Notes under the pieces: model-generated
Databases searched by the model: none
Seen by the model: only the letters and a program-made list of their open reading frames with translations
What the model was told of the DNA's origin: nothing
Made by a program: the position numbers and the translations under genes
In this document: in pieces, positions 2,356 to 8,133 of the stretch
Numbering within the stretch: position 1 is the first letter of the stretch
How the letters are laid out: the number at the start of each line of letters is the position of its first letter
Origin: a virus
IMG/VR virus record: IMGVR_UViG_3300037502_000482
Location: 1 to 34,741 of that record
DNA length: 34,741 nt
Direction: 5' to 3' (one strand)

Positions 2356-3192
2356 CTATTCAAATGTAGCACCCTTTGGGCCTTTCGGCTGTGGGCTGAT
2401 CCCCGAGTTGCGGGGTTGGTTCAGCGGGTCAGGTGCCTTGGTTACCTTGGGTTTCATGGCAACGGCTTTGGCCTTCAAGTCAGTCGCAAGTCGCACAGCG
2501 GCCATTGTTACCGGCATCTGTACAAGCCTCTCAAGTTCTAACTGGTTCTTGGCAAGGTACTTCGTGAGCAGTGGCCCGTGGTCATCGGCAAGAATCATCT
2601 CTACCAATGCCGGGTCAATCCCGTATCCTGCGACAAGCGTTCCAGCCTCTTGTAGCTCTGCCGCCGCAACACCGAGTTTATTGGCTCGTTCTGCGTAGGC
2701 TTTGACTTCTTCCTGCTGTCGTTCCTGCTGCCGTCTTTGCTGCTCCAAGTCGGCCTGCTGACGCTGCCAAAGCAGTGTCTGCTGTTGTGCCTCCCAAGCC
2801 GCAGCCTCGCGGATGGCTTGATCCCTCTGAACCAGCCTTTGTCTGTACTCAACGTCTGAGAGTGCAAACGGGTCTGGCGCTTCAGGGACTATCGGCCTTC
2901 CTTGCTGGGGAATTTTCGCTTCAAGTTCTTCAAGTCGCTTGCGGAGTGCTTCGGCTTCACGCTCTTTTTCACGGAGCTTGAAAACCTTTTTACCCACAGC
3001 CTCATTGAAGATTCGCTGCTGTTCCTCAGTAAACTCAACAGGTTTTTCGTGTGTTGAGTCGCCACTATCCGGTGCTGATTCGGAGTCAGGCTCTGGAGTT
3101 TCCTCCTGCTCTTCCTGACCTTCAGTTTCTGGTAGGTCGTCTTCCTGCTCGATTAGATAACCACCATCATCTGGTTGCAGCTCTTTGCTCAT
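2356..3192 (-). CDS. Scaffolding protein
   Basis: 278 residues of very charged, Glu/Gln/Lys/Arg-rich sequence. The first 60 residues are acidic and disordered-looking. Residues about 70-95 and 120-170 are strong coiled-coil helices rich in Gln and Arg. The C-terminus is basic and Pro/Gly-rich (KAVAMKPKVTKAPDP), as expected of the coat-binding end of a P22 gp8-type scaffold. Position between portal and coat supports this. AAGGGG lies 8 bases before the ATG. Assignment rests on composition and synteny, because scaffold sequences diverge quickly. Confidence 0.9.
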   Translation of the reverse strand: MSKELQPDDGGYLIEQEDDLPETEGQEEQEETPEPDSESAPDSGDSTHEKPVEFTEEQQRIFNEAVGKKVFKLREKEREAEALRKRLEELEAKIPQQGRPIVPEAPDPFALSDVEYRQRLVQRDQAIREAAAWEAQQQTLLWQRQQADLEQQRRQQERQQEEVKAYAERANKLGVAAAELQEAGTLVAGYGIDPALVEMILADDHGPLLTKYLAKNQLELERLVQMPVTMAAVRLATDLKAKAVAMKPKVTKAPDPLNQPRNSGISPQPKGPKGATFE

Positions 3193-3213
3193 GATTGCCC
3201 CTTTAAGGTAGAT

Positions 3214-3263
3214 GCCACGAATAGGGTCGTGTACCCGGTCTTACGCCACGAAGAAGGTCGTGT
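3214..3263. repeat. Two direct copies of a hairpin-forming 19-mer before scaffold
   Basis: The plus strand at 3214-3232 reads GCCACGAATAGGGTCGTGT and at 3245-3263 reads GCCACGAAGAAGGTCGTGT, 17 of 19 identical and 31 bp apart. Each copy is itself an inverted repeat, CACGA-N6-TCGTG, with the differences confined to the loop. The pair occupies the 111-bp portal-to-scaffold spacer, 22 bp upstream of the scaffold start. An mRNA-processing or stabilising pair of hairpins, or a dimer-protein operator, would fit. Confidence 0.75.
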
Positions 3264-3286
3264 GCCTGTTCACAGTCTGTCACAAG

Positions 3287-3303
3287 TTGACAAATATTGT
3301 CAA
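3287..3303. promoter_or_regulatory. Palindrome directly after the portal stop
   Basis: TTGACAA-ATA-TTGTCAA is a perfect inverted repeat with 7-bp arms and a 3-base centre, directly abutting the portal stop codon (3304-3306). Each strand contains a consensus -35 hexamer TTGACA, but no matching -10 lies 16-18 bp downstream on the minus strand. There is no T-run, so it is not a standard terminator. It looks like an operator half-site pair. Confidence 0.45.
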
Positions 3304-5508
3304 TTACCTCACAAACGGATTCAAGGCACTAACCACCTTCAACTGGTTGTCGATGGCTTGGCCTTGGGTCGCTACCTGATCGCGCTGAATCTTGGCACCT
3401 GCTTCCTGTGCCTTGATCTGCGTGTTCATTCTCTGAGTTTCAGCGTTGAAGGAATCAAGCTGGAGATTAGCTTGGTCGGTCTGGAGGCCCATCTGAAGTT
3501 TCTGCGCCTCAAGTTGAATTCGGGCCATCTCAAGCTGGAGTTTCTGCATATCCACCTGCGCCCGCATCTGGTCGGCTTGGGCTTTTGCCATCTCGGCCTG
3601 AGCCAGAACCATTGCAGGGTCTTGAGCCTGACCTTGCATCTGCATCTTGGCTTGAAGTTCAGCCTTCTCTTCATCGGTCATCTGGGACTCAGGGATAATC
3701 CCTTGAGCCAGCATTTGAGCGCGTCTGCGTTCAGCAAGAGCGTCAGCAACAGGAGAGACCACGTTCCTCAACAGCAGATCACCACCGAGCTTGAGGATGT
3801 CGGGATCGACCTGAGCTAGATCAATCATCGTTCTCAGAGTTTGTTCTTGGCGATTCCTGAAGCTGGGGCCAGCCTTACACACTACGTCATACGTTCCTTC
3901 AGACAGGTCGTTGACCTTCACCACCCGCCCGGTCTGGCCGTCAATGACTTCCTGATTGATGGGCTTCATTTCCATTGAACCATCTTCGTACATCAAGCGC
4001 ATTTGACGCTGGTTGTCGTAGACCTTGGGGATCGTGGAGACAAGGATTTTGCCGGTATGACCAATGGCAATTTCCATTGCTTGGAAGTATTTGTGGGTGC
4101 CGTTATCACCTTTGTTCTGGAGCCGCTCAATCGCTACACCAGACTGAAGGCCCGGATTGTCGCCCATGTTCGAGGCAAACATCCCAGCGGACATTCCGAT
4201 AATGCCGCGCATTGCTTCGGAGATCGTCCTAAGTCCGGGGTTGATCTGAGCACCGCCCTGCTGCTGGGGAGCGCCGGGAACCTGTGGATCAGGGTTGTAG
4301 AACTGGACGGGATCGGTATTTGTGTTCAGGGTCTGGAGCTGGAGTTCATGCCCAGCAGCCTGAGCCATCGTCATCCAGTACTTAGCCCTCGGAGCCAGAG
4401 CGCCTTCCTCAATCTCACGGGACAGTGAATAGTTCAGAACTCGCTGGGAATCCATGAGCTTTTCTACTGCGCCGTAATAGATTGTCTTGTTCTCAAGAAT
4501 CTTGAAGTTGGCGTAAACAGGGACAACAGGCAGATAACAGAAAGCTGTATCCCGATCATCCTCAAGCCAATCCGAGGCATCGAAGAGACGCGAACAAACC
4601 TTCTTGTACTTGCGCTCACGCCTGCGGACTTCGGTAACACCCATCTGCAACAGTTCGTCTTTGATGGTTTCAAAGTCATCATTGACTTCATGCACTTGGC
4701 CGTTCGACATCAAGACCAGTTCGCGCATTTCCTCCTCAACGTACAGGAGTTCACCAATCACAACCACCTCTGCCTTGTCGTAATAGGCATCACCCTCGCG
4801 GTCATCGGATACACTCGAACCAGAACCTTCAGGCCAGCGAGCGTAATATTCCTCGGTGGAAATCGGATGCAGCACGAAGCAATAACGAGCATCTGACTTG
4901 TCTTGCAACTGAGCGGACGGATCAAACCATACTCGGTCAACAGCGTTGCCGATAGGTTCAATCAACAGGTCTTGGTCGAAAGAGTTGTCGTCAGCAAACT
5001 TCTGAACCACTCGCCACGCATCGAAGCCGCAGGTCACAGCACCCCTGCCTGCGTGAGAGTAGATCAGGGAAGCGTTCGAGATCGTTTCAAGGTTGCGGAT
5101 GATTGCGTCATAAGTCTCGGCAACGTCCTTAGATGCCGATCCACCAGCGGGAGAGACCTTGATATCGAAGTCAGCCTGCTCAAGTTCGCCTGCAATCTGG
5201 TCAACAATGGGAGACGCCATATCGAACGTATAGCGCGGCTTGTTGATGTTGTTGTTCCACCAGTAAGGCTCCCACTGACCATCCCGCTTGGAAACGAACA
5301 GATGGGCTTCCCTAGCCTTCTCACGGTTGTCGTGGTCGGCCCACTGGGCAGCCTTCAGCAGATTGATAATGGCATCGTGGGAATCGTACTTGTCCTCAAT
5401 GTCGAGGATTTCATCACCCTTCTCCACTGCTTTCTTACTGACGTAACCATCGTCTTCGGAGTCCATCTCGGAGCCGTTCTCGTATTCAGCCATTAGCGTC
5501 CACCCCAT
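3304..5508 (-). CDS. Portal protein, P22 gp1-like
   Basis: 734 residues, against 725 for P22 gp1. The twelve-subunit portal is the DNA channel and the docking site for terminase and for the gp4-like adaptor. An acidic N-terminus precedes the core, which includes RYTFDMASPIVDQIAGELEQ and later YFQAMEIAIGHTGKILVS. The final 110 residues are a long Gln/Ala/Met-rich helix with QADQMRAQVDMQKLQLEMAR-like periodicity, matching the C-terminal barrel of P22-type portals. The start overlaps the large-terminase end by 16 bp. Synteny with TerL, scaffold and coat is as in P22. Confidence 0.95.
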   Translation of the reverse strand: MGWTLMAEYENGSEMDSEDDGYVSKKAVEKGDEILDIEDKYDSHDAIINLLKAAQWADHDNREKAREAHLFVSKRDGQWEPYWWNNNINKPRYTFDMASPIVDQIAGELEQADFDIKVSPAGGSASKDVAETYDAIIRNLETISNASLIYSHAGRGAVTCGFDAWRVVQKFADDNSFDQDLLIEPIGNAVDRVWFDPSAQLQDKSDARYCFVLHPISTEEYYARWPEGSGSSVSDDREGDAYYDKAEVVVIGELLYVEEEMRELVLMSNGQVHEVNDDFETIKDELLQMGVTEVRRRERKYKKVCSRLFDASDWLEDDRDTAFCYLPVVPVYANFKILENKTIYYGAVEKLMDSQRVLNYSLSREIEEGALAPRAKYWMTMAQAAGHELQLQTLNTNTDPVQFYNPDPQVPGAPQQQGGAQINPGLRTISEAMRGIIGMSAGMFASNMGDNPGLQSGVAIERLQNKGDNGTHKYFQAMEIAIGHTGKILVSTIPKVYDNQRQMRLMYEDGSMEMKPINQEVIDGQTGRVVKVNDLSEGTYDVVCKAGPSFRNRQEQTLRTMIDLAQVDPDILKLGGDLLLRNVVSPVADALAERRRAQMLAQGIIPESQMTDEEKAELQAKMQMQGQAQDPAMVLAQAEMAKAQADQMRAQVDMQKLQLEMARIQLEAQKLQMGLQTDQANLQLDSFNAETQRMNTQIKAQEAGAKIQRDQVATQGQAIDNQLKVVSALNPFVR

Positions 5509-6917: not shown

Positions 6918-7278
6918 CGACTACCCTTACCGTCCACTCGGTTTGAATTGGCCCGCCATCGGCACCCGTCTGTTCTACTCTGTCCGTTTCCTTGAATCCC
7001 ATCTGGGTCTTGGCATAGAACATCGCGGCCCGAATGCAGTCAGCGTATGTAGCGCCATCCTTCAGGGATGTGCCAGATGCAGCTTGGAACAAAAACCGCC
7101 CAACCTGACCGTGAGCCTTCGCCATAGCCTCGTCCATGATCTCGCGGTAATACTTGCTTAAAGTCTTGTCGTCAATGCCGATATAAGCAGCCACCTGCTT
7201 TACGGGAACGCCGTAGCTAATCAGAGCAGCCACTTCTGCCCTGCTCTTTTCGGTTGGCTCATGCGGTCTGCGGGACAT
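6910..7278 (-). CDS. terS: Terminase small subunit
   Basis: 122 residues. Residues about 10-50 form a helix-turn-helix (AALISYGVPVKQVAAYIGID, then KTLSKYYREIMDEA), followed by a helical oligomerisation segment and a short beta tail ending TVRVVDA that would contact TerL. The family binds pac DNA as a ring. It is a little shorter than P22 gp3 (162). The ATG overlaps the Mom-like gene stop as TAATG, and the end overlaps TerL by 8 bp. Confidence 0.9.
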   Translation of the reverse strand: MSRRPHEPTEKSRAEVAALISYGVPVKQVAAYIGIDDKTLSKYYREIMDEAMAKAHGQVGRFLFQAASGTSLKDGATYADCIRAAMFYAKTQMGFKETDRVEQTGADGGPIQTEWTVRVVDA

Positions 7279-7949
7279 TAGATTGCCTCCGCTGAAGATT
7301 GGAGCGTACAGGTCGGAGTCGCACCGCCCAGATCAGGGGGGAACCCTGATTCCTGCTCTTTTGTACGCTTAGGATATGGTTTGCTCAAATGGGTTATACG
7401 TTGGCGCATTTCATTGTCTAAAGGCATTAAATAAGTGTGTTTACCCTGCACTTTCTTTTTTATCATATTTTTTTGATCTACACCTGCATCATCAACAGTT
7501 TTTTTGTGTGACCACTTTCCGTTGTACCAAACCTTGATGGCAGTGCTAGATAAGCCTCGATAAATCCAATTTGCTGCCTGATATATCCCGCCATGATGCT
7601 TTTGATCTGGGTCTGCATAAGAGATGACTAATTTAAGATCAGTGCTTTGCTTTTTAAGAAAATTGATCGCAATAGCCATAATTCTTGATATTGGTGTTTT
7701 GTGCTTTGCTATAGCAATTCTGACAAGCTCACAGCCCTGATCCTGTGTAAGCCCATAACCTTTGACCATGTTGCAGTTTGCGCCCCTGCCAAATATAACC
7801 ACTCCGATAAATTTGCCAGACTCCCAAACCCCGATTTTTACTAACTTGCCAACAGGTAGGCATCTTGAATAATGCCAATTCTCACAAGCATACTTTGCAG
7901 CCTCATGTGTTGCCCAATCTATTTTTAATTCAATCTTAGACAAGACCAC
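7278..7949 (-). CDS. mom-like: Mom-family DNA adenine modification protein
   Basis: About 223 residues from the GTG at 7949. Phage Mu Mom, a GNAT-fold enzyme, converts adenine in DNA to a methylcarbamoyl form that resists restriction. Features fitting the family are NWHYSRCLPVGK near residues 24-35, IGVVIFGRGAN, the CELVRIAIAKH segment with SRIMAIAINFL, and SYADPDQKHHGGIYQAANW. The ATG at 7997 would overlap the upstream gene by 62 bp. AAAGG precedes the GTG at 7949 and a TTG at 7943, and both give a small overlap, so I prefer these; which one is used is unsure. The basic tail (MRQRITHLSKPYPKR) may bind DNA. It stands between ParB-like and terminase genes. Confidence 0.85.
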   Translation of the reverse strand: MVLSKIELKIDWATHEAAKYACENWHYSRCLPVGKLVKIGVWESGKFIGVVIFGRGANCNMVKGYGLTQDQGCELVRIAIAKHKTPISRIMAIAINFLKKQSTDLKLVISYADPDQKHHGGIYQAANWIYRGLSSTAIKVWYNGKWSHKKTVDDAGVDQKNMIKKKVQGKHTYLMPLDNEMRQRITHLSKPYPKRTKEQESGFPPDLGGATPTCTLQSSAEAI

Positions 7950-8133
7950 CAAACCTTTCTTTTCTGAACTTGTCGCAAAACGACTGAATCGCATCATTTA
8001 TAGATTCATTGGCTGGCGAAATCATAACAACCTTTTTGCCATCAATAAGCCCTGTATATACCTTTGAATTGCCCAAACTTTTGGTTTCAAAACATGCCAA
8101 AATGTTTTTGTTTTTTTGTTCTTCTGTAATCAT
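7936..8133 (-). CDS. Hypothetical 65-aa protein in the ParB/Mom cassette
   Basis: I do not recognise it. It begins MITEEQKNKNILACFETKS, has a short beta-like stretch (SKVYTGLIDGKKVVMISP) and ends in a basic helix (FCDKFRKERFGGLV). The start overlaps the ParB-like stop as ATGA and the end overlaps the Mom-like start by about 14 bp. In phage Mu the gene before mom encodes Com, a small translational activator. This protein lacks Com's Cys zinc site, so position alone hints at a partner role. Confidence 0.75.
   Translation of the reverse strand: MITEEQKNKNILACFETKSLGNSKVYTGLIDGKKVVMISPANESINDAIQSFCDKFRKERFGGLV

Follow-up and report, generated by a model that had tools for sequence, protein, structure and literature searches.

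Covarying pseudoknots predicted in phage scaffold mRNA leaders, a probable control of scaffold amount

In the window, which is the whole stretch of 34,741 nucleotides analyzed here, a short inverted repeat occurs twice in the 111-nt gap between the portal and scaffold genes (Table 1). The copies are located at 3214-3232 and 3245-3263, with 19 nt each, 2 differences and an offset of 31. Read on the minus (coding) strand, they are ACACGACCTTCTTCGTGGC (3263-3245) and ACACGACCCTATTCGTGGC (3232-3214). The first-pass annotation had described two 19-mers ahead of the scaffold, 17/19 identical and 31 bp apart, which is exact by both the coordinates and the comparison of the copies. The exact pattern CACGA-N6-TCGTG occurs 2 times in the record, both in this gap, and the backward-read control pattern 0 times. 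Allowing up to 3 mismatches, the 19-mer consensus matched only the two copies, and 100 shuffles gave a mean of 0.02 matches and none with two. The bare 10-base pattern with 2 mismatches had 8 matches against 12.6 expected, no rarer than chance, so the signal lies in the exact copies. A repeat search over 3150-3350 listed no repeats.

The same annotation had read the copies as plain hairpins on the plus strand, with changes confined to the loop. The repeats and the confinement of the changes stand. The strand and the plain form do not, since the genes are read from the minus strand and, in each copy, the sequence on the 5' side of the stem pairs with the first three loop bases (AGG:CCU in the upstream copy and GGG:CCC in the downstream copy). 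The copies differ only in the loop because these loop bases pair with the 5' flank. The differences between them would therefore amount to one compensated change plus loop drift. The two hairpins are well supported as the second stems (S2) of two tandem H-type pseudoknots predicted in the leader of the scaffold(-coat) mRNA, the downstream one ending 23 nt before the scaffold ATG.

Table 1. Positions of the predicted elements and the surrounding genes in the window
Feature	Position	Strand	Description
Terminase	6917-5493	minus	precedes portal
Portal gene, 734 aa	3304-5508	minus	upstream neighbor; PF16510 P22_portal, E 2.4e-143
Candidate -35 TTGACA	3298-3303	minus	directly 3' of portal stop codon; read in sequence
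Candidate weak -10 CAGACT	3274-3279	minus	TG one base upstream (extended -10, TG-A-CAGACT); 18 nt from -35; 3/6 consensus; 6 nt before stem 1
Pseudoknot 1	3247-3267	minus	S1 AGG 3267-3265, L1 CA, S2 CACGA 3262-3258, S1' CCT 3257-3255, L3 TCT, S2' TCGTG 3251-3247
Pseudoknot 2	3216-3236	minus	S1 GGG 3236-3234, L1 TA, S2 CACGA 3231-3227, S1' CCC 3226-3224, L3 TAT, S2' TCGTG 3220-3216
Weak hairpin CCT-TAA-AGG	3200-3208	minus	3' arm holds part of the Shine-Dalgarno sequence
Shine-Dalgarno AAGGGG of scaffold	3198-3203	minus	read in sequence
Scaffold gene, 278 aa	2356-3192	minus	PHROG 8865 head scaffolding protein, E 2.7e-22
Coat gene, 422 aa	1076-2344	minus	next downstream; PF11651 P22_CoatProtein, E 5.4e-65

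The scaffold of the window had no Pfam match. Its candidate promoter falls below the cut of both scans that we used (sigma70 consensus, and -10-like hexamer with a 4/6 cut), and the sigma70 scan gave 16 promoters in the window against 18.2 in shuffles, which is no excess. Elsewhere on the minus strand, the window encodes an HNH endonuclease downstream of the coat gene (439-963) and, beside the terminase genes, a Mom-like DNA modification protein (7278-7997; PHROG 1384, E 1.7e-58).

Relatives were collected among metagenome viruses, with three window proteins (portal, scaffold, coat) plus the coat of Pseudoalteromonas phage H6/1 as queries and taking the best 80 matches of each. From 204 scaffold leaders, 74 non-redundant ones (less than 85% alike) were kept; 22 loci yielded no leader, L228 and L214 were excluded because their start was wrong or truncated, and a minimum leader length of 60 nt was applied. 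The looser caller found a pseudoknot in 60 of the 74 leaders, compared with 25/740 shuffles and 28/700 other windows, leaving 14/74 without a call. Two of the leaders without a called pseudoknot (L197 and L216) carry a hairpin, then a T run, then another hairpin before the start. In a general scan of the 74 leaders, 35 beat all 40 shuffles, while four did no better than about half of their own shuffles, or worse; single leaders are often not significant alone, and the details of some calls seem incorrect (L105, L204). A fixed motif was present in 35/74 scaffold leaders, in 19/6927 other windows on the same strand and 21/7210 on the opposite strand, and in 0/209 upstream regions of other ORFs (100 aa or more). 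A third match of this motif in the window (minus 9676-9656), 95 nt before an ORF for an Arc-like repressor (9561-8995), was taken as chance, as the background rate predicts about 2-3 in this record.

The predicted fold is shared by many P22-like and Sf6-like phages, cultured ones such as Sf6, IME_EC2, ZP9 and H6/1 included. A pseudoknot of this form ranks first or second among the candidates in Sf6, NM-3, phiSG1, MS2 LVA, CUS-3, IME279, PfAn1, ct3Oc712, H6/1, Vibrio 340E47.2 and ZP9, and likewise in ST231, IME_EC2, Lumpael, Kc237, Skarpretter (a score reached by 12/100 shuffles) and C130_2. It was called in APSE-1, Kc259 and STP9. Slightly relaxed limits gave a call in 21 of 23 named phages against 20/460 shuffles, though many of these phages are close relatives and the call in IME10 is weak. 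Nine of ten prophage loci (Yersinia, Arsenophonus) were tried and five gave a leader, three of them identical; all 5/5 had a pseudoknot, the Yersinia one with an unpaired base. Even with the wider limits, no pseudoknot was called in P22 or ct76p945. The leader of P22 gene 8 has a candidate of its own (GUGU-ACAC with CGGC-GCCG), reached by 1/200 shuffles. This candidate is broken in IME10 and was rejected by the caller, so membership of P22 in the family is unsupported.

The stems of the element change together among relatives. Uncompensated stem substitutions had been proposed as the observation that would speak against a paired structure; on examination, stems had changed with compensation instead, for example CACGA/TCGTG, CGCGA/TCGCG, CTCGG/CCGAG, CCAGA/TCTGG, CCTGA/TCAGG, CGTGA/TCACG and CCCAT/ATGGG. 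The loop and the 5' flank likewise remain complementary in H6/1-like leaders (CTG/CAG, ATG/CAT, GAG/CTC, CAG/CTG, GTG/CAC, CCG/CGG), and the plain-hairpin reading was rejected on account of the covariation between loop and flank. The family keeps a geometry of 3-5 bp in S1, 1-3 nt in L1, 4-6 bp in S2, no L2 and 2-6 nt in L3. Few bases are nearly fixed among the 60 called leaders, namely the last L1 base (A in 56/60) and the first S2 pair (C-G in 58/60). An idea suggested by the window, that the main function is loop pairing with the Shine-Dalgarno sequence (CCU with AGG), was rejected as a general rule because such pairing is impossible in leaders whose loop begins with CAG, CAT or CTC.

We examined S1 in two ways that do not depend on the pseudoknot call. 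When hairpins were chosen blind to S1, 43/97 had a strict Watson-Crick 3-bp S1 (loop bases 1-3 against the flank) at L1=2. Among the 35 other registers, 29 stayed under 5%, five reached 5-9% and one reached 16/97 (L1=3, offset 1), this exceptional register being partly an outward extension of the same S1 helix. In the fixed register, repeated on all 84 hairpins with none dropped, 45 had a 3-bp S1 with G-U allowed, whereas partner-shuffled sets had a mean of 8.0 and a maximum of 16 in 2000. An alignment of 41 rows, drawn from 66 hairpins, gave a covariation score of 0.687 against 0.133 when shuffled and at most 0.14 with slid partners, and 96.5% of its cells pair against 68.6% shuffled. In the same alignment, further pair types (16 vs 15.2 shuffled) are not above the shuffles, and pairs with changes on both sides (5 vs 3.9; 18/500) do not stand out. 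Standard pairs of several types, G-U included, swap for each other. The invariant C-G pair of this alignment is by choice, because hairpins whose S2 does not start with C were dropped; six whose S2 starts with C were dropped by hand (L047_17, L104_44, L104_25, L105_50, L184_19, L234_42).

Changes were also counted on a coat-protein tree that covers 71 leaders, of which 57 have a pseudoknot call. The three S1 pairs had 12, 19 and 21 both-side changes and 1, 0 and 1 one-side changes, and the S2 pairs had 2, 12, 22 and 16 both-side changes and 0, 2, 0 and 0 one-side changes, all conditional on the call. Across these leaders, S1 takes 22 different triplet sequences and S2 takes 26 different quartets. 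Because the tree counts are conditional, the argument for S1 rests on the S1-blind and fixed-register tests. The covariation of S2 is less clean than that of S1, because S2 was always chosen for pairing.

The element is attached to the scaffold gene rather than to the portal gene. At most loci compared, portal and scaffold are 0.26-3.7 kb apart (the window with its 111 nt and L089 with 123 nt are close-packed), and despite this distance one or two hairpins stay directly before the scaffold. A role in -1 frameshifting at the portal end was rejected, as the element stays with the scaffold across up to 3.7 kb. Regarding the intervening DNA itself, three loci carry an extra ORF of 327-588 aa between portal and scaffold (L097:1774-2757, L025:2445-3821, L010:5307-7073) which is absent in the window. 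These ORFs start with MAESALR, are otherwise very different, matched nothing in Pfam or PHROGs at E 0.01, and look like a swappable, cargo-like protein. In H6/1 (L182), four small opposite-strand ORFs occupy the same slot (2390-3079).

The called pseudoknots end 14-50 nt before the scaffold AUG, and in 43 of the 60 leaders the distance is 14-29 nt with a median of 24. All spacers of 34 nt or more (17/17) hold an extra hairpin, compared with 404/850 shuffled ones, and in some this is a second pseudoknot. In one group of leaders, which includes L202, L222 and L243, a third hairpin, often GTC-GAAA-GAC or GGC-GAAA-GCC, is placed between the pseudoknot and the Shine-Dalgarno sequence. A small hairpin whose 3' arm holds the Shine-Dalgarno sequence occurs in 33/60 leaders against 247/1200 spacer shuffles, with stems such as CCT/AGG, CTC/GAG, CCTTT/AAAGG and TATCC/GGATA. 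Upstream, a -10-like hexamer (4/6 cut) ends 6-11 nt before S1 in 43/58 leaders against 299/1160 shuffles, and in 9/58 leaders such a hexamer lies 24-29 nt before S1. It is absent in six of 52 leaders listed, Sf6 among them.

The comparison of leaders shows the predicted fold, places it upstream of the scaffold and close to the start codon, and ties it to the scaffold gene rather than to the portal. The proposed link between an RNA element and the scaffold gene holds to this extent, with the form corrected from a plain hairpin to a pseudoknot. The leader element is probably a control of scaffold amount. From the short AUG distance, the frequent Shine-Dalgarno hairpin and the loyalty to the scaffold, we infer that the pseudoknot acts on the initiation of scaffold translation. 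By analogy, we favor with modest confidence a translational operator for scaffold autoregulation, whose putative bound factor is the scaffold itself. Unassembled scaffold protein would bind the leader pseudoknot, and the bound scaffold would cover the ribosome site, or close it together with the weak Shine-Dalgarno hairpin. Scaffold synthesis would then proceed only while the coat protein uses scaffold up, as a counterpart of P22 scaffold autoregulation that may work like the operator of T4 gene 32. This operator is ranked first because of the T4 gene 32 precedent and the P22 autoregulation. Points against it include the strongly acidic N-terminus of the scaffold, the leaders lacking a call and the many leaders that fall short of significance when taken singly. 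P22 also weighs against it because autoregulation is known there, yet P22 has no conserved pseudoknot of such form. If true, the leader pseudoknot would couple capsid assembly to translation, and tandem copies, as in the window, may serve as a graded or cooperative switch.

We cautiously place this autoregulation operator ahead of two other roles. The pseudoknot may instead form the 5' terminus of the transcript and shield the scaffold-coat mRNA from 5'-end-dependent decay, as in ompA, raising the yield of scaffold and coat. The position of the -10-like hexamer would put the transcript start at the pseudoknot or slightly upstream of it, and scaffold and coat are needed in excess. However, Sf6 has no -10-like site, and its pseudoknot, like those of NM-3 and phiSG1, is contained in the last part of the portal reading frame; the AUG spacing is also tighter than a stabilizer needs. 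A pure 5' stabilizer or an RNA-processing site, as the first-pass annotation had suggested, is less likely as a general role because of this portal-frame location, the missing Sf6 site and the short distance to the scaffold start, and we consider the stabilizer unlikely. A ribosome standby site or translation enhancer, in which the pseudoknot, bordering the 30S footprint on its 5' side, would keep the initiation region open and boost scaffold with no regulator, seems similarly improbable. The median distance to the AUG and the hairpins in all longer spacers are consistent with it, but the two conserved stems, the tandem copies in some leaders and the frequent Shine-Dalgarno hairpin look more like a regulated site, and a simple enhancer would have no need of a pseudoknot.

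Rather more doubtful is an RNA site for another ligand, which could be the coat or portal protein, a ribosomal protein of the host or a small molecule; scaffold would again be the output under control. Small pseudoknots serve as r-protein operators and riboswitches, and the few nearly fixed bases would suit such a site; the element has no Rfam 15 match at gathering score in the loci scanned, however, and the remaining sequence varies freely, arguing against a small-molecule pocket. Dyad operators of a DNA-binding protein, which the promoter-like site beside the hairpins in most leaders would allow, are very improbable, since both arm pairs vary by compensation in a kept geometry, interleaved inverted repeats with compensating arms and interchanging standard pairs including G-U are expected of RNA rather than of a protein's DNA site, and Sf6 lacks the promoter-like site.

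Pseudoknot operators are a known kind, and the scaffold-leader family and its gene are, as far as could be seen, new. Rfam 15, STAXI and preQ1 included, gave 0 gathering-score matches in the window, 15 relatives and 15 more loci, and permissive scans of two stretches gave sub-threshold hits only, none convincing. The element would add an RNA family without an Rfam 15 match. The scaffold-leader pseudoknot was not found in the literature searched, which covered few subscription journals, and the available passages of PMC12005531, PMC3185693, PMC2629481 and PMC9962691 contain nothing on autoregulation. We put at about even the chance of a new widespread RNA family through which free scaffold shuts off its own synthesis in P22/Sf6-type phages of marine and enteric hosts. 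The question can be put to the test directly in Sf6, a Shigella phage, and in IME_EC2 and C130_2, phages of E. coli or its relatives, all of these being laboratory hosts.

Among known systems, the preQ1 riboswitches are also compact pseudoknots and sit near the Shine-Dalgarno sequence, whereas the stems and loops of the scaffold element are free to vary and it lies upstream of scaffold genes. The ompA 5' stem-loop belongs to an abundant mRNA and lies at its 5' end or close to it; in contrast, the scaffold element is a pseudoknot close to the AUG, and in Sf6 it occurs without a promoter-like site. The coordination of scaffold with coat in P22 has been known as a phenomenon since the 1980s, and Wyckoff and Casjens reportedly described this scaffold autoregulation in 1985, with control after transcription. 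We know of no defined RNA target for it. The gene, the gene order and the protein class are the same as here, whereas P22 has a CGGC/GCCG hairpin and no conserved pseudoknot. The STAXI motif likewise consists of tandem small pseudoknots predicted by comparative genomics, but it has two, usually three copies with frequent UUCG loops and lies near DNA-manipulation genes (PMC2864571). The T4 gene 32 operator is a pseudoknot that nucleates binding of the gene's own product, together with a less structured tract of >40 nt with UUAAA/UAAA repeats (PMC535899). No such tract was found here, as the window spacer is 23 nt with one UUAAA, and two UAAA occur in 4/60 spacers. In both systems, a phage gene has a small pseudoknot on the 5' side of its ribosome site. 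The T4 gene encodes a ssDNA-binding protein, whereas here the gene is the scaffold and its regulator is putative; the scaffold spacers are mostly 14-29 nt and a Shine-Dalgarno hairpin is frequent. The scaffold leader may thus be a second phage case, beside T4 gene 32, of a leader pseudoknot sensing a phage protein.
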